Below are positions 34,394 to 52,002 of a stretch of 64,000 bases of DNA, in pieces. The notes under the pieces were generated by a model. It searched no databases and was not told where the DNA came from. It saw only the letters and a program-made list of their open reading frames with translations. A program made the translations under genes and the position numbers. How positions within the stretch are numbered: the first letter of the stretch is position 1; each line of letters opens with the position of its first letter. This stretch comes from Paenibacillus dendritiformis (lineage in GTDB: Bacteria > Bacillota > Bacilli > Paenibacillales > Paenibacillaceae): positions 4,642,001-4,706,000 of the forward strand of contig NZ_OX216966.1 of NCBI RefSeq assembly GCF_945605565.1, written 5' to 3'.

Positions 34394-35224
34394 TTAATCT
34401 CTTAATTGTCGCACAAAATCGCAAATTTGCAAGATCCCATCTTCAAAAGTGGCCTCATCGGACAACAATGGTTGAGCTTCTTCAATTTTCCGCACGATGG
34501 CGCTGCCGACAATAACGCCGTCGCAGTAGGCTGAAAATTGCTTCACGTGCTCTGGCGTCGAGATGCCGAATCCGACGCATACGGGGAGCGGCGTCGTTGC
34601 CTTCACCTGCCGGATGAAGCGCTCGACCTCTTGATCGAAGCTCTCTCTTACCCCGGTCACGCCCAGCGAGGATACGCAGTAAATGAAGCCCCGGCCTTCC
34701 GCCGTGATGCGGCTGATCCGCTCTTCCGAGGTCGGCGCGACGAGCGGTACGAGGTGAATGCCGCAAGCATCCGCCGCTTCCCGCACCGGCCCGCTCTCTT
34801 CGTACGGCAGGTCGGGGATGATCGCCCCGCTGAAGCCGGCCTCCGCCGCCGTCCGGAAAAAGCGTTCGATTCCGTACTGCATGACGGGATTGTAATACGT
34901 GAACAGGACATAAGGAATGCGCGCTCCTTGCTCCCGCGCCTGTCTCGCTACCCGGAAGCTGTCCTCCAGCGTCACGCCGCCCCGCAGCGCCCGCTCCGCC
35001 GCCCGCTGAATGACCGGCCCGTCCGCCAGCGGATCGGAATACGGCACGCCCAGCTCAATGACGTCCGCGCCCGCTTCCTCCAAGCGGAGCAGCAGCTTCA
35101 AGGTCGTTCCGCAATCTGGATCGCCCAATGTAATAAACGGCATCAACGCCGCCTTGCCTTCCGCACGGTAGCGCGCGAACATATCATCCAGCCGGTTCGT
35201 TGCCTGTGCAGCCATGTCGCTCAT
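34394..35224 (-). CDS. trpA: Tryptophan synthase alpha subunit
   Basis: Cleaves indole-3-glycerol phosphate and channels indole to TrpB. 276 residues in a TIM barrel. [11 protein letters not shown] and [20 protein letters not shown] hold the catalytic glutamate and aspartate. [20 protein letters not shown] and [12 protein letters not shown] belong to the phosphate and catalytic loops. Start ATG overlaps the trpB stop (ATGA, 35221-35224). The order trpB-trpA is the normal one and the subunits should be made in equal amounts. Confidence 0.97.
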
Positions 35225-36444
35225 TCTTCCTCTCCCCCCAGCGTCTCCATAATCTGATTGACGTCTTTGTCGCCGCGCCCGGACAGGCAGATGACCAGTA
35301 TCGAATCCGGGGACATCGACGGCGCTTCCTTGATCGCCTGGGCTACGGCATGAGCCGATTCCAGCGCCGGAATAATTCCTTCGGTCCGGCTGAGCAATTG
35401 AAGCGCGTCCAGCGCCTCTGCGTCCGTGATCGGCACGTACTTCGCCCGCATGCTGTCCTTCAGGTACGCGTGCTCCGGGCCGACGCCCGGGTAATCCAAT
35501 CCGGCCGATATCGAGTGCGCCGGCTGCACCTGGCCGAATTCGTCCTGCAGCACGTAGCTGAGCGAACCCTGGAATACCCCGCGGGACCCCTTCGTCATCG
35601 TAGCGGCATGGAACGGCGTGCCGATCCCTTTGCCGGCGGCTTCGACGCCGAGCAGCGCCACTGACTCATCCTGAAGGAACGGGTAGAACATGCCCATCGA
35701 ATTGCTGCCCCCGCCCACGGCGGCGATGACGAGATCGGGAAGGCGCCCTTCCTTCTCCAATATCTGCTTGCGGGTCTCGTCCCCGATAATGCGCTGGAAG
35801 TCCCGCACCATCATCGGATAAGGATGCGGACCGGTCACCGACCCGAGAATGTAGAAGGTGTCATCGACTTGGCTGACCCAGTAGCGCAGCGTCTCGTTGC
35901 AGGCATCCTTCAGCGTGCGGCTTCCCGACAGGACGGGAACGACCTCCGCCCCGAGCAGCTGCATGCGGAATACGTTCAGCCGCTGACGCTTCATATCTTC
36001 TTCTCCCATGAACACCTTGCACTCCATGCCGAGCAGAGCCGCTACGGTCGCCGTCGCCACGCCATGCTGGCCCGCTCCCGTCTCGGCGATGACCTTCTTC
36101 TTGCCCATCCGCTTGGCCAGCAGCGCCTGGCCGATCGTGTTATTGATTTTGTGGGCGCCCGTATGGTTGAGGTCTTCCCGTTTCAAATAAATTTTGGCTC
36201 CGCCCAGCGTCTCGCTCAACCGCTCCGCATAATAGAGCGAGGTCGGTCTGCCGGAATACTCCTGCAGAAGCTTGATGAGCTCCGCCTGGAATTCCGGCTC
36301 CTTCGTATATTGTTGATAAGCTGCTTCCAGCTCGAGAAGCGCATTCATCAACGTCTCCGGCACGTATCTGCCGCCGAAGTCGCCGAAGCGGCCATGAGCG
36401 TCAGGCAGTACCGCCGCCGTTCCCTTCGTCTGTGTCTGTTCCAT
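35221..36444 (-). CDS. trpB: Tryptophan synthase beta subunit
   Basis: PLP enzyme condensing indole with serine, 407 residues. It begins near [20 protein letters not shown]. The PLP lysine lies in [20 protein letters not shown], with [19 protein letters not shown] and the glycine-rich phosphate site [17 protein letters not shown] at 36444 follows an AAGGGTGAG site, so the first 44 nt lie inside the end of trpF, longer than the usual 4-nt overlap in this operon. Confidence 0.97.
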
Positions 36445-37171
36445 ATGCTCTCACCCTTTCGATAAATGCGGATACTTTACGAATATCTTTTATCCCGTTG
36501 GTCTCGACCCCGCTCGATACGTCCACGCCATCGATACGGCTGCCGGCAAGCAGCCTCCCCACATTGTCCGGATTCAAGCCCCCCGCCGCATAAAGGGGAA
36601 GACCGAGTTCTCCGGCAAGCGAACGATAGTCCGGAATCACGGTCCAATCGAATGCGCGCCCGGAGCCGCCTCCCTGCGACGGATCATGCGTATCCAGCAG
36701 GATGGCGTCGATGGAATGCCGCATGCGGCGCAGCATCGGTTCCGCCGCAGCCGCCCGGTTCCCGCCCTGCTCCGGGCCGGCAATCGGCACCGTCAGCCAG
36801 ACCTGCACCTCATGCCGGCTCTTCAGCCAGGCCGGAAGGTCCGGATCATGATCGGCGATCAACTGCACCGCATCCAGTCGCGCCTCCGCCAGCACCGCGT
36901 CCACATCTTCCCGCCGAGGACGGGCGAATACTCCAACCGTGAGAGGAAGCTTCACGCGCTCTTCCTCCAGGCGGGCCAACCAGCCGCGCACATCGGCAGG
37001 CGATACTTGCCTCCGGCTTGGCGCGAACACGAACCCGATGCAGTCCGGTCCGGCCCCTACGATGTCCCGGGCCGTCTCCAGCCCGGTCACCCCGCATATT
37101 TTCACGCTCGGCGGCCGTCCGTGGCCGCCGCCGTTCCGCTTCTTCCTTGCTTCCTCCGTCAGCTCCGGCAT
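36401..37171 (-). CDS. trpF: Phosphoribosylanthranilate isomerase
   Basis: Amadori rearrangement of phosphoribosylanthranilate, 256 residues. [20 protein letters not shown] carries the catalytic cysteine, and [43 protein letters not shown] and [12 protein letters not shown] complete the TIM-barrel signature. An N-terminal extension rich in Arg/Gly and a C-terminal tail make it longer than the usual ~210. The tail is what overlaps trpB. ATG at 37171 follows AAGGAG. Confidence 0.93.
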
Positions 37172-37190
37172 TGCACTCGCGCTCCTTCCG

Positions 37191-37994
37191 TCATACCGCG
37201 ACCCGTGGCAGACCGCTCATCAATTGCTCTACGGCCTCTTCCACGTTTGGCTGCCGCATCAGATGCTCGCCGACGAGCGCGGCGTCGATTCCCAAGTCCG
37301 CCAGGCGGTTCATATGCTCCGGCTTATGGATTCCGCTCTCGCTGACCAGTGTCCGATCGGCCGGTACGAGGGCGCGCAGCTGTTCGGTCTGCTCCAGATC
37401 CGTGACAAATGTATGCAAATTCCGGTTGTTAATCCCGATGAGCGGCGCATCGTCGAGCGCCAGCACCCGCTGAAGCTCCAGCTCATCATGAACTTCAATC
37501 AGCGTCTCCATGCCGAGATCAAGCGCACAGCGGTTCAGCCGCGCCAGCTCGCTGTCATTCAATATCGCCGCGATGAGCAGCACGGCATCGGCGCCGATAA
37601 GGCGGGCTTCCAGCAGTTGCAGCTCATCGATGATGAATTCTTTGCGCAGCACCGGAAGCTCCGTCCGGCTGCGCACCTCGCGCAAAATATCGTTGCCGCC
37701 TTGAAAATAAATGCGATCCGTCAGCACCGACAACGCGTCGGCCCCGGCGGCTTCATAGCCGCGGGCGATGGCCGCCGGATCGAAATCTTGGCGGATCAGC
37801 CCTTTGGAAGGCGATGCTTTCTTCACTTCCGCAATCAAGCCGACGGAGCGCCGTTTCCCGGCCGTCAGCGCGTATATGAGCGAGCGGCATGGCGGCAGCT
37901 GCGCGATGGCCCGCTCCGCCTCCCGGCGGTTCAGCTCCGCAGCCAGCTCCGCTACCTCCTGGCGCTTCGTCTCTACAATTCGATCAAGAAACAT
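37191..37994 (-). CDS. trpC: Indole-3-glycerol phosphate synthase
   Basis: Closes the indole ring in tryptophan synthesis. 267 residues from ATG 37994, with GGGGGA 8 nt before. LIAEVKKASPSKGLIRQDFD is the catalytic-lysine motif of the family; ALSVLTDRIYFQGG, VLRKEFIIDELQLLEARLIG, IGINNRNLHTFVTDLEQTEQ and LVSESGIHKPEHMN follow in order. The start lies 11 nt inside the trpD end. A much longer open frame upstream in the same frame is only the antisense-like shadow of trpD and is not used. Confidence 0.96.
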   Translation of the reverse strand: MFLDRIVETKRQEVAELAAELNRREAERAIAQLPPCRSLIYALTAGKRRSVGLIAEVKKASPSKGLIRQDFDPAAIARGYEAAGADALSVLTDRIYFQGGNDILREVRSRTELPVLRKEFIIDELQLLEARLIGADAVLLIAAILNDSELARLNRCALDLGMETLIEVHDELELQRVLALDDAPLIGINNRNLHTFVTDLEQTEQLRALVPADRTLVSESGIHKPEHMNRLADLGIDAALVGEHLMRQPNVEEAVEQLMSGLPRVAV

Positions 37995-39039
37995 GACTCC
38001 ATCCCCCTGTCGCTTCTCTCCATTGCTCCAGCTTGCGGAGCGTCTGTCCGCCGTCAATCGCATCGGCCGCGATGCGGACACCTTCGGCGATGCTCTCCGC
38101 CTGGCCGGCCACGTAGATGCAGGCGCCGGCGTTCGCAAGCACGATGTCGCGGTGCGGCCCCTGCTCCCCGTGCAGAATGCGGCGGATAATGCCCGCGTTC
38201 GTCGCGGCATCGCCGCCCAGCACGCTGGACAGCGGCTGCGTCTGCAGCCCGAGCTGCTCCGGCGTAATATCATACGTTCTCAGCTCGCCATCCTTCAGCT
38301 CGCTAATCCGGGTCGGAGCGGACAGGCTGATCTCGTCGAGGCCGTCTTCGCTTGCGACGACGAGCGCCCGCTTCAGGCCCAGCTCGCGGAGCACTGCCGC
38401 GATCGTCCCGGTGCGGCTGCGGTCATAGATGCCCAGCACCTGGCGATCCGCTCCCGCCGGATTGGTCAGCGGGCCGAGCATATTGAACACCGTGCGCACG
38501 CCCAGTTCCCGGCGCGGCGCCGCGGCATGCTTCATAGCGGGATGGAACACCTGCGCGAACATGAAGCAGATGCCGACGCGGTCCAGGCATTCCGCGGCCT
38601 GGTCGCTCGTCAGATGAATATTGATGCCGAGCGCCTCTAGCACGTCGGCGCTGCCCGAGCGGCTGGAGGCGGAGCGGTTGCCATGCTTCGCGACCCGAAC
38701 AGAGGCGGAAGCCGCGATAATCGCCGATACCGTAGAAATGTTCAGCTTGTGGATGCCGGAGCCGCCGGTCCCGCATGTATCAAGCAGGCGATCCTGCCCG
38801 GTGATGACGTGGCGGGCACGGCTGCGCATCGCCTCGGCGAAGCCGACAATTTCGTCCACCGTCTCGCCCTTCAGACGCAAGCAGGCCAGCAAAGCGCCGA
38901 TCTGGGCGGCAGAGGCATGGCCGTCCATCACGTCGGACATGACCTCCCGCGCTTCTTCGCGGCTCAGATGACCGCCGGCCAGCACATGGGCCAGCGCTTG
39001 CTTCGTCAAGACGCTGTCTGGAACCGTGTGAGTACTCAT
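37984..39039 (-). CDS. trpD: Anthranilate phosphoribosyltransferase
   Basis: 351 residues from ATG 39039, behind AAAGGAG and overlapping the trpE stop by 4 nt. DTCGTGGSGIHKLNISTVSA is the PRPP-binding signature. KHGNRSASSRSGSADVLEAL, FAQVFHPAMKHAA, RTVFNMLGPLTNPAGADRQV and GLDEISLSAPT are the expected conserved segments. The fold is the usual nucleoside-phosphorylase-like one. Upstream of 39039 the frame is open but contains only trpE sequence in another frame. Confidence 0.96.
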   Translation of the reverse strand: MSTHTVPDSVLTKQALAHVLAGGHLSREEAREVMSDVMDGHASAAQIGALLACLRLKGETVDEIVGFAEAMRSRARHVITGQDRLLDTCGTGGSGIHKLNISTVSAIIAASASVRVAKHGNRSASSRSGSADVLEALGINIHLTSDQAAECLDRVGICFMFAQVFHPAMKHAAAPRRELGVRTVFNMLGPLTNPAGADRQVLGIYDRSRTGTIAAVLRELGLKRALVVASEDGLDEISLSAPTRISELKDGELRTYDITPEQLGLQTQPLSSVLGGDAATNAGIIRRILHGEQGPHRDIVLANAGACIYVAGQAESIAEGVRIAADAIDGGQTLRKLEQWREATGGWSHVS

Positions 39040-40685
39040 TGCGATACGCTCCTTTCTGCCATAAGCTTCTTGCCCGGTTGGACAGCCGCGTAGTAGTCCC
39101 AATTGACCGGGAGCGCGGCCCGCTCCGCAGCCTGGACGGAAGGACGGCCGCTCCTCGGCGCTTCGATGGATGCAGCGGATTCCCTGCATTCGAACATCTC
39201 CTCCGCCGTCTGAATGGCGAGCAGCAGCGCCTTCGCCTTGTTGACCGTCTCCTCGTATTCCTTCTCGGGGACCGAATCCCATACAATGCCGGCGCCGGCT
39301 TGAACATAGGCGGTGCCGCCCTTGAAAATAATCGTTCGAATCGTAATGCAGGTGTCCATGTTGCCGTTGAAGCCCAAGTAACCGATAGCGCCGGCGTACG
39401 CCCCGCGCGCTTCCTGCTCGAGCTCCGCGATAATCTCCATCGCGCGCAGCTTCGGTGCGCCGGAGACCGTGCCGGCCGGCAGACAGGACAGGAAGGCGTC
39501 GAAGAAATCTTTGTCCCGGCGCAGCGTGCCGGATACGTTCGATACAATGTGCATCACATGCGAGTAGCGCTCAATGCCCATATACGTATCGCAGCGAACG
39601 GTGCCGAATTCGCATACCCGGCCGAGATCGTTGCGCCCGAGGTCGACCAGCATCACATGCTCGGCCCGCTCCTTCTCATCCTTCAGCAGCTCTTCCTCCA
39701 GCGCCAGATCCTCTTCTTCCGTCCGTCCGCGCGGCCGGGTGCCGGCGATCGGCCGCGTCTCCACCCGCTCGCCGTTCACCCGGACGAGCGCCTCGGGCGA
39801 GGTGCCGACGAGCGTTTCGTCGTCCATTTTCAGAATGTACATGTACGGGGAAGGATTCGTCATCCGCAGCACCCGGTACACATCAAGCGGATCGACCGTC
39901 GTCTGCCGCTCGAACCGCTGCGAGAGGACGACTTGGAAGATGTCCCCGCCGCGAATGTATTCCTTCGCCCGCTCCACCTTATCCATAAAAGACGCCCGCG
40001 TCTCATTCGAACGGTACGGCTTCAGCTCGGAGGCGGCTCCTCCCGGGAGGAAGCGGCCGCTCTGCAGTTCGGTGGCCGGAGCGGCCAGCAGCTTCTCCTG
40101 CAGCCGTCTCAGCTTCTCCTTCGCCTGCTCGTACAGCGTCCGGATATGCTCCTCCGTATCGTCCCGCTCCAGATGGAGATTGACGATGAATTGTAGCTGC
40201 TGCCTGACATGGTCGAATACGATCAGCTGATCGCAGAACATGAATTGAATATCATTCATCATCAGGTCGTCCTGCCGATGGCGCGGAAGACGCTCATACT
40301 GCTGCACCAGATCATAGCCGAAAAATCCGATCGCTCCGCCCGTCAGCGGAGGCATGCCCGCCAGGGCCGGGCTTTCATACTTGCGCAGCAGCTTCTTCAC
40401 AGCGGCTAGCGGATGCTCGTGGATCTCGGTGACGGCATCCCGTTCGGTAATGCGCAGCGTGCCGTTCTTGCCCTGCAATATCAGAAAGGGATCGGTGCCG
40501 ATAAAGGAGTAGCGCGCCCATTGGACTCCGCCCTCCACGCTTTCCAGCAAAAAAGCATAAGGCTCCTGCTTCAGCCTTTGGAACAATCGTATCGGGGTCT
40601 CTGTATCTGCCGTGATGGTCTCGGAGACCGGTATAACCGGATAAGTGCGGGATAATCGCAATACTTCATCCACATGAGGATGCAT
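39036..40685 (-). CDS. trpE: Anthranilate synthase component I
   Basis: Converts chorismate and glutamine to anthranilate with a glutamine amidotransferase subunit. 549 residues from ATG 40685, 8 nt after AAAGGAG. An N-terminal tryptophan-feedback region (PYAFLLESVEGGVQWARYSF) precedes the chorismate-binding half: GDIFQVVLSQRF, TRPIAGTRPRGRTEEEDLAL, DLGRNDLGRVCEFG and AGTVSGAPKLRAMEIIAELE. The trpG/pabA subunit is not in this operon; in Bacillus it lies in the folate locus. Expression should be set by the TRAP attenuator upstream. Confidence 0.97.
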   Translation of the reverse strand: MHPHVDEVLRLSRTYPVIPVSETITADTETPIRLFQRLKQEPYAFLLESVEGGVQWARYSFIGTDPFLILQGKNGTLRITERDAVTEIHEHPLAAVKKLLRKYESPALAGMPPLTGGAIGFFGYDLVQQYERLPRHRQDDLMMNDIQFMFCDQLIVFDHVRQQLQFIVNLHLERDDTEEHIRTLYEQAKEKLRRLQEKLLAAPATELQSGRFLPGGAASELKPYRSNETRASFMDKVERAKEYIRGGDIFQVVLSQRFERQTTVDPLDVYRVLRMTNPSPYMYILKMDDETLVGTSPEALVRVNGERVETRPIAGTRPRGRTEEEDLALEEELLKDEKERAEHVMLVDLGRNDLGRVCEFGTVRCDTYMGIERYSHVMHIVSNVSGTLRRDKDFFDAFLSCLPAGTVSGAPKLRAMEIIAELEQEARGAYAGAIGYLGFNGNMDTCITIRTIIFKGGTAYVQAGAGIVWDSVPEKEYEETVNKAKALLLAIQTAEEMFECRESAASIEAPRSGRPSVQAAERAALPVNWDYYAAVQPGKKLMAERSVSQ

Positions 40686-40733
40686 GACATCCACTCCTTT
40701 CGAATTCGGGTGAGTCGGATGGAACCAAGAAAC

Positions 40734-40761
40734 AAAAAAACCTCTACCGCAAGGTAGAGGT
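40734..40761 (-). terminator. Attenuator terminator of the trp operon
   Basis: Minus-strand ACCTCTACC and GGTAGAGGT pair perfectly around a 4-nt loop (40740-40761), followed by seven U residues. It lies 49 nt before trpE. The 5' arm can alternatively pair with GUAGAG (40965-40960) inside the TRAP site, the usual antiterminator logic. Confidence 0.85.
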
Positions 40762-40928
40762 CCGTTGATTCGATCATGACATTGTGGATGAGCAAGCTCA
40801 GGGTATATCAAAGGTTGGATCGCCAAAGAAAGGTCAGATTCGCCAAATAACCCCCGGTTGTTCCTCTAAAAAGGAAGGGAAGGCTCTACACCTCTGGCGA
40901 TGGCATCCGCTTATGACGTATCCATGCT

Positions 40929-40981
40929 CTCAGCTCGACTCAACTCAATCTCATCTCAACTCTACTTACTCTACTCAACTA
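40929..40981 (-). promoter_or_regulatory. TRAP (MtrB) binding site: eleven NAG triplets in the trp leader
   Basis: Read 5'-3' on the minus strand, the 53 nt contain eleven triplets: one UAG, then two GAG, one AAG, then seven GAG, separated mostly by 2 nt (one 1-nt and one 3-nt spacer). Eleven (G/U)AG repeats with 2-3-nt spacers are the hallmark of RNA wrapped around the 11-subunit TRAP ring. It starts a few nucleotides after the predicted transcription start and is followed by the terminator at 40734. mtrB is present at 51684. Confidence 0.85.
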
Positions 40982-40992
40982 TGCTTCTTCAC

Positions 40993-41021
40993 ATCATACC
41001 CGCAAATAATCAATGCGTCAA
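40993..41021 (-). promoter_or_regulatory. Promoter of the trp operon
   Basis: Minus-strand TTGACG (41021-41016), 17-bp spacer, TATGAT (40998-40993). Transcription would begin near 40986, just ahead of the TRAP triplets. It lies downstream of the aroH stop, so trp genes can be read both from here and from aroC readthrough. Confidence 0.75.
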
Positions 41022-41096: not shown

Positions 41097-41465
41097 CTAT
41101 GAAGTGGCCAAGTCCGGGCGCAGCTGGGAAGCCTCGTTCAAGTACACGTGGCGCACTTCCCTCTGCGATTTGTCTGTATTGACGGTTACCATCAAGCGGA
41201 TGCACAGCGGCAGGCTGCCCGCGACGGGCACCTCCACGGCGCACATTAACGGCACCCACTCCCAGCCCGGCATCGCGCGAATGGCCTGCGCCGGGAAGGA
41301 AGCGTTCAGATCCTGGGTCATCGTAATCCATATGCTGACGATGTCCTCCGGAACGATCTGATTCTCTGCCACGATATGTTCAAGCAACACGGTCGTCTCG
41401 CGCCGTATTTCATCCGCATCATTGCGCTGGACGGTGGTCGCTCCCCGTATTCCCCTTGCATACAT
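41097..41465 (-). CDS. aroH: Chorismate mutase, AroH class
   Basis: 122-residue monofunctional chorismate mutase converting chorismate to prephenate for tyrosine and phenylalanine. It opens with RGIRGATTVQRNDADEIRRE (active-site arginine) and continues with SIWITMTQDLNASFPAQAIR and VPLMCAVEVPVAGSLPLCIR; this is the trimeric Bacillus-type fold and not the AroQ helical type. The gap from aroB is 2 bp. A 412-bp regulatory gap to trpE follows. Confidence 0.94.
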   Translation of the reverse strand: MYARGIRGATTVQRNDADEIRRETTVLLEHIVAENQIVPEDIVSIWITMTQDLNASFPAQAIRAMPGWEWVPLMCAVEVPVAGSLPLCIRLMVTVNTDKSQREVRHVYLNEASQLRPDLATS

Positions 41466-51683: not shown

Positions 51684-51905
51684 TTAATCCGTATCGGTAT
51701 GCAGCTCGCCATGCTTCGTCAGGATGACGGCCTTGCCGCGCACCTTGACCGCAGACGTATGATCAGTGAACTGCGCAATCAGCACTTCGTTCTTGTCCAG
51801 CTTCTCGATATGATGGAAGCGGGTATCCTGGCCCCGTGTCAATCCGAATACCTGCACGCCATGATCCTTCGCCTTGATAACGATATAGTCGGTCTGGTTC
51901 TCCAA
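51684..51905 (-). CDS. mtrB: Tryptophan RNA-binding attenuation protein TRAP
   Basis: 73 residues; forms an 11-subunit ring that binds NAG-repeat RNA when loaded with tryptophan. [39 protein letters not shown] and [11 protein letters not shown] align to B. subtilis TRAP. The RNA-binding Lys37, Lys56 and Arg58 correspond to K35, K54 and R56 here. The chosen TTG start (51903-51905) is 7 nt after GGAGGG and gives the family length; the ATG at 51983 would add an unusual N-terminus. Its target is the leader at 40929-40981. folE (mtrA), its usual partner gene, is absent. Confidence 0.93.
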
Positions 51906-52002
51906 CAGAACTCCCTCCTCTTCTCTCGCTATTATAACACGGTTGCGCCGCTTGCCCATAGCCCGTCTCGAACCCAATGGCACGTCTCCCCGGACAAGAG
52001 AA

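Follow-up and report, generated by a model that had tools for sequence, protein, structure and literature searches.

Attenuation by TRAP, a ring protein that senses tryptophan, is a textbook example of an RNA switch and is known mainly from work on Bacillus. Here, we describe the leader of the tryptophan (trp) operon of Paenibacillus dendritiformis, which lies in a window of 64,000 nucleotides (nt), the whole stretch analyzed (assembly GCF_945605565.1, contig NZ_OX216966.1, positions 4,642,001 to 4,706,000 of the forward strand; coordinates below count from the first letter of this window). The leader occupies the minus strand between the aroH stop (41097) and the trpE ATG (40685), and its parts, in the order of transcription, are as follows:

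40993..41021, minus strand: sigma-A type promoter, with −35 TTGACG (41021-41016), a 17-nt spacer and −10 TATGAT (40998-40993), matching 10/12 consensus positions
40984..40986, minus strand: AAG, a possible twelfth triplet near the transcript start as placed from the −10 position
40929..40981, minus strand: putative TRAP-site array of 11 NAG triplets spanning 53 nt (nine GAG, one UAG and one AAG)
40960..40974, minus strand: two GUAGAG copies within the array (40974-40969 and 40965-40960), complementary to CUCUAC of the terminator 5′ arm
40802..40928, minus strand: spacer, the least conserved part of the leader and predicted to be self-folding
40764..40801, minus strand: conserved pre-terminator segment, the proposed anti-array strand of an antiterminator
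40734..40763, minus strand: intrinsic terminator (attenuator), with a hairpin (40763-40738), CUCUAC (40759-40754) and U7 (40740-40734)

As the initial annotation had it, the promoter, the eleven triplets and the U7 terminator ahead of trpE can all be read directly in the sequence. The triplets begin at 40981 (TAG), 40976 and 40971 (GAG), 40967 (AAG), and then at 40962, 40957, 40952, 40946, 40941, 40936 and 40931 (all GAG), separated 5′ to 3′ by 2, 2, 1, 2, 2, 2, 3, 2, 2 and 2 nt. This fits the pattern of about 11 GAG/UAG repeats 2–3 nt apart, with 10 GAG/UAG triplets, one AAG and one 1-nt spacer. Only 11 nt separate the −10 hexamer from the array-opening UAG, and the distance from the −10 to the first scored triplet is 5–11 nt in 13/13 leaders of the genus. 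The last triplet is followed by 163 nt up to the hairpin (its start taken as 40765, as in the comparisons below; an alternative terminator call sets it so that the gap is 165 nt), the 8-base-pair core of which reads CCUCUACC-UUGC-GGUAGAGG (40760-40741). The array scores 20.0, against a mean of 7.5 and a maximum of 10.5 for the best scores in 60 dinucleotide shuffles of the 64-kilobase (kb) window, and it is the sole strong array there, the next best scoring 8.0 on the same strand and 6 on the other. A strict five-triplet pattern matched no other TRAP site in the genome; a looser one matched three places, this array included, versus nine in a reversed control, and we claim no new target.

The genes that accompany the leader in the window include one for TRAP itself:

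51684..51983, minus strand: mtrB (TRAP) open frame, start codon unsettled, domain at 51693-51896
41097..41465, minus strand: aroH, the gene upstream of the leader, which precedes it in six relatives (tblastn)
39036..40685, minus strand: trpE (TIGR00564, 594.6 bits, cut-off 517.7)
34394..39282, minus strand: open frames of trpD, trpC, trpF, trpB and trpA

The mtrB frame lies 10.7 kb upstream in the same direction, and its product matches PF02081 (125.8 bits, cut-off 21.3) and NF009724 (129.6 bits, cut-off 117) and aligns over its length with solved TRAP chains. The operon runs trpE, D, C, F, B, A, hisC; the trpD frame (37984-39282) starts upstream of its own domain, and trpF scores below the cut-offs of its models, but its position in the operon fits. 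The gene at 41097..41465 we take to be aroH from its size and position, no family search having been made for it. By TrpE, the nearest named species are Paenibacillus profundus and P. apiarius (best segment 78% identical; the genome's own record was possibly excluded). Across the sampled Paenibacillaceae, mtrB is present in 148/148 genomes, and in the class it is found in 146/200 genomes, family members counted. With mtrB, array, terminator and trp operon all in place, and with array and terminator recurring across the family sample, the initial annotation's central claim of a TRAP-type attenuator before the operon stands: on these sequence features, with TRAP binding predicted, a TRAP attenuator of some design very probably controls the trp operon.

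The family comparison rests on the first 200 residues of TrpE, which match 137/148 family genomes and find no match in 11/148. We compared 131 trpE leaders, namely this one and 130 from the 136 other TrpE-matched genomes (G060, G107, G070, G139, G100 and G144 being left out); the leader of G068, which has no terminator by the strict scanner and one by a laxer scanner, was excluded from all tests on 130. The array scores above the maximum (9.0) of 393 mononucleotide shuffles in 126/131 leaders, the five with weak arrays being those of G002, G007, G016, G030 and G088, and 130/131 leaders have a hairpin with a U-run between array and trpE. The terminator 5′ arms of the 130 leaders are of the types CUCUAC (55), CYCCYGC (52), CUCUGC (15) and other (8), and 115 of them contain CUC, the complement of GAG. 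For comparison, 55 genomes of other families were searched, 52 matched and 40 leaders were fetched, of which 10 were dropped for want of a usable array and terminator and 30 kept. With the strict scanner, the gap between array and terminator is at most 50 nt in none of the 130 family leaders versus 23/26 from other families (a further 4 lacking a terminator), the medians being 137 nt (range 64–428 nt) and 23.5 nt, respectively. With the laxer scanner, such short gaps occur in 13/131 family leaders versus 27/30 others if the first hairpin is taken, and in 0/131 versus 21/30 if the last is. Since short gaps are near-absent in the family sample and usual in the other families under the same scanner, a long gap characterizes the family sample and is no peculiarity of this genome; the greater spacing than in Bacillus subtilis that the initial annotation remarked on is thus the rule here and rare among the other families in the comparison.

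In B. subtilis a 5′ stem-loop is placed ahead of the array, whereas the leader described here has no room for one if its transcript starts where the −10 hexamer suggests. The trpEDCFBA attenuator of that species, in the excerpted accounts used throughout for published work, is of the same kind, with mtrB-encoded TRAP, 11 triplets mostly 2–3 nt apart and a terminator before trpE. Those excerpts give a trp leader of 203 nt with 11 GAG/UAG repeats and a 5′ stem-loop (PMC3913778), and an antiterminator (+60 to +111) that shares 4 nt with the terminator (+108 to +133) (PMC4027176), in contrast to the 163-nt gap of P. dendritiformis and to a proposed array partner that lies directly before and inside the terminator. 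A further difference from B. subtilis is that anti-TRAP was not found in the P. dendritiformis genome; TrpP was also looked for and not found. In the family sample, anti-TRAP (PF15777) scores above cut-off in 2 (4 at an E-value of 0.001) of the 148 genomes, all 148 of which carry mtrB, and, given this rarity in mtrB-carrying genomes, relief of TRAP in the family may mostly work without it.

Excerpts on Bacillus halodurans describe a trp leader with 19 triplets and, on the grounds of Lys15 and Thr72, consider the TRAP of Paenibacillus likely to be a 12-mer (PMC3184956). The MtrB encoded here has both residues (aligned to chain 9bds_A) and its array can be read as 12 triplets; it differs in having His instead of Asp at position 71, and hence lacks the Lys15-Asp71 bridge described in the same excerpts (PMC3184956). 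If the AAG near the transcript start is counted, the array has 12 triplets and the six close leaders discussed below have 11 to 13, and we therefore draw no conclusion on a 12-subunit TRAP. We found no study of a Paenibacillus trp leader in the open-access PubMed Central literature.

Among six aligned close leaders (this one and five relatives), the invariant columns number 43/53 in the array, 33/38 in the pre-terminator segment and 25/26 in the terminator, versus 41/102 in the middle spacer (40899-40812); for scale, the trpE start has 88/101, about like the pre-terminator segment. Words before the terminator recur in the 13 leaders of the genus (CUCAUC in 8, CACAAU in 9), and the spacers of the more distant members have no match by eye. 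The initial annotation had called the AAG and the 1-nt and 3-nt spacers unusual. The AAG is indeed absent from the five relatives: together with the 1-nt spacer it arises from four extra nucleotides that, of the six leaders, only this one has, and it is no family trait. These nucleotides were probably inserted here rather than lost from the relatives, one of which (G146) has a regular GAG-UA-GAG-UA-GAG at the site. The 3-nt spacer, for its part, is kept in 6/6 leaders, and 1-nt spacers of another make occur in 3/5 relatives. Triplet number and spacing, the conservation of which had been put forward as a check, vary somewhat, with 10 (in four leaders), 11 or 12 core triplets in the six, and array length in the family at large is widely variable.

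When the leader is folded up to the 3′ arm of the terminator, its minimum-energy structure is a rod in which the array pairs with the pre-terminator segment and GUAGAG (40974-40969) lies on CUCUAC; the rod of array and pre-terminator segment also appears in the consensus fold of the six close leaders. The initial annotation had proposed the downstream copy (40965-40960) as the partner of CUCUAC, and it is complementary, but the minimum-energy fold uses the upstream one. Blocking the array leaves the 5′ arm unpaired in the minimum-energy fold and raises its unpaired probability to 0.79, against 0.33 in the free leader and a mean of 0.33 for ten blocks of the same length in the spacer. This predicted release recurs in the family: an array block frees the arm relative to the free leader in 17/19 genera (p 0.0004) and relative to a spacer block in 18/19, with a gain above 0.1 in 82/130 leaders. 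Pairing between array and arm exceeds that with shuffled arms in 19/19 genera, native arrays pair the arm more than shuffled arrays do in 16/19 (in the P. dendritiformis leader, shuffled arrays equal the native one in 2/25), and the native arm pairs the array more than the arms of other genera do in 14/19. In 108/110 leaders with enough pairing, the arm finds its partner within the 5′ half of the array, a position that nested pairing favors anyway. As a partner for the array, the 60 nt ending in the 5′ arm beat 79/79 other windows at this locus (−37.7 versus a mean of −19.5, standard deviation 4.6); they are better than the average partner in the means of 19/19 genera, rank in the top tenth in 71/130 leaders and are the single best window in 32/130.

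Several results weigh against a rod that governs termination. An array block lowers the freedom of the arm by more than 0.1 in 15/130 leaders, and two genera (g3 and g4) show the reverse of the general trend between blocked and free leaders. The genus of P. dendritiformis has no advantage over swapped arms (0.67 versus 0.68), and in its own leader 12/25 arms from other genera and 9/25 shuffled arms are as good as the native one; in another leader of the genus (G114), 55/79 other windows are equally good partners for the array. The longest perfect complement between array and arm averages 5.28 for native arms versus 4.94 for arms of other types (p 0.23), being longer for the native arm in 6/7 CUCUAC genera and both CUCUGC genera and shorter in 6/7 CYCCYGC genera; exact complementarity shows no significant tracking of terminator type across genera. 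Against dinucleotide shuffles, a weak test, the array gives mixed duplex energies with the 60 nt that precede the arm (z-score here −1.47); when the arm is added, the medians are negative in 13/19 genera (z here −2.38). In the six-leader consensus fold a double change affects 1/63 pairs and is located in the spacer, these leaders being too conserved for covariation to be informative. Finally, when the terminator is present in full, the hairpin forms at equilibrium with a free array and with a blocked one alike (1.00 each in this leader), and the finished terminator thus prevails over the GUAGAG/CUCUAC pairing. Its probability in the free leader falls below 0.5 in 7/130 family leaders (the hairpin wins in 123/130) and likewise in just 8/22 leaders hand-picked from the 30 of other families (G153, G269, G185, G165, G169, G170, G179 and G275 omitted). 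As a test of switching, such folding of the full-length leader was rejected, in that it separates little: the terminator forms regardless of the block, also in 14/22 other-family leaders. The comparison of folds with and without blocked triplets that the initial annotation had suggested has two outcomes, release of the 5′ arm before the hairpin is made and no effect afterwards. In view of these negative pairing and folding results, we rate the rod of array and pre-terminator segment as likelier than not; that there is a TRAP attenuator at all we take as almost certain.

Taken as a whole, the mechanism that we favor, with moderate confidence, is a TRAP-controlled transcription attenuator with a long-range anti-array antiterminator. 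At low tryptophan, the array would pair with the conserved segment directly before the terminator, its 5′-most triplets (GUAGAG) would take up the 5′ arm (CUCUAC), and RNA polymerase would pass before the hairpin forms. At high tryptophan, the TRAP ring would occupy the array, no rod would form, and the freed 5′ arm would allow the hairpin to fold and transcription to stop. Because the complete terminator forms with or without TRAP at equilibrium, which counts against this mechanism, a kinetic switch would be required, and the long spacer may act as a timer that delays the decision long enough for TRAP to bind.

It is also conceivable, though unlikely, that TRAP on the array acts directly on RNA polymerase or the terminator with no rod involved, the pre-terminator segment being conserved otherwise, for instance as a pause site. 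Excerpts on B. subtilis state that TRAP is able to cause termination without the attenuator (PMC3913778), and the equilibrium folds, in which the terminator forms with no need of TRAP, agree with such action; the excess of array-arm pairing over shuffled arms throughout the 19 genera does not. Still less probable is that the array mainly controls trpE translation, with the hairpin as a constitutive damper on transcription. TRAP in Bacilli also regulates translation, and a B. subtilis structure hides the trpE ribosome site, according to the excerpts (PMC3184956, PMC3913778). A local hairpin (CAUCC.ACUC with GAGUGGAUG, 40688-40721) is predicted over the trpE ribosome site here, and it has mismatches in 4/5 close relatives (by eye). 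Paired with the ribosome site, the pre-terminator 60 nt form duplexes that tend weakly in the expected direction, the medians being negative in 15/19 genera, most of them weaker than −1.2 (z here −1.14), and a role of this segment as a blocker of the ribosome site was not established. Against control of translation stands the position of the terminator, which lies between array and trpE in all but one of the 131 leaders and, as judged by eye, precedes trpD in six operons that lack trpE. T-box riboswitches and ribosome-dependent leader peptides control trp genes in other bacteria, and either is most improbable here, as no Rfam family reaches its gathering score within the window and the short leader frames hold no run of Trp codons (by reading).

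Extending the attenuator with a long-range antiterminator to the family, we tentatively suggest, as a possibility somewhat short of even, a Paenibacillaceae design in which an array and a distant anti-array strand are separated by a self-folding spacer of 64 to more than 400 nt, the far end of the rod captures the 5′ arm, TRAP prevents the rod, and the time window for binding comes from the spacer in place of pausing and a 5′ stem-loop, mostly without anti-TRAP; two genera, with five to eight regular triplets and a conserved 5′ hairpin, would point to half-ring binding. A family whose presumed TRAP site lies far from the terminator sets apart binding and the decision to terminate, which are fused in the Bacillus model system, and the timing of protein binding versus RNA folding thereby becomes directly testable. 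Its leaders, which differ naturally in array number, gap and 5′ hairpin, offer a ready series for such tests.

The spacers themselves were considered as unusually stable domains, a candidate that we rejected: their folding z-scores average −1.56 over the 130 leaders, 44 of which fall below −2, but the P. dendritiformis leader stands at +0.2. In genera g6 (L102, L079) and g7 (L105, L108), about 300–430 nt extend from array to terminator, and these stretches fold below shuffle energies (mean z −2.1 and −3.9, respectively).

Among the 11 TrpE-unmatched family genomes, six were examined, and in each the order is aroH, leader, trpD. In three of these (G024, G069 and G106; loci L143, L144 and L145), trpE is missing from the operon and the attenuator is retained upstream of trpD, with a 12-triplet array (score 22.5) and a terminator (by eye) before an apparent remnant of the trpE start. 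The other three (G061, G108 and G124) have poor arrays (8.0, 5.5 and 9.5) and a terminator by eye.

In 15/15 trp leaders of two genera (L123 and L128-L141), a 41-nt hairpin (GCGGAAC...ACUUACGC) lies between the promoter and a short regular array of 5–8 triplets. Four of these loci were searched against Rfam, with no match at an E-value of 0.5. A model built from the 15 hairpins picks out the same 15/148 genomes, each with a single copy, and none further at an E-value of 0.001 (strict filters). The stem covaries, with double changes in 5/12 pairs, and the element is possibly a 5′ stem-loop for TRAP.
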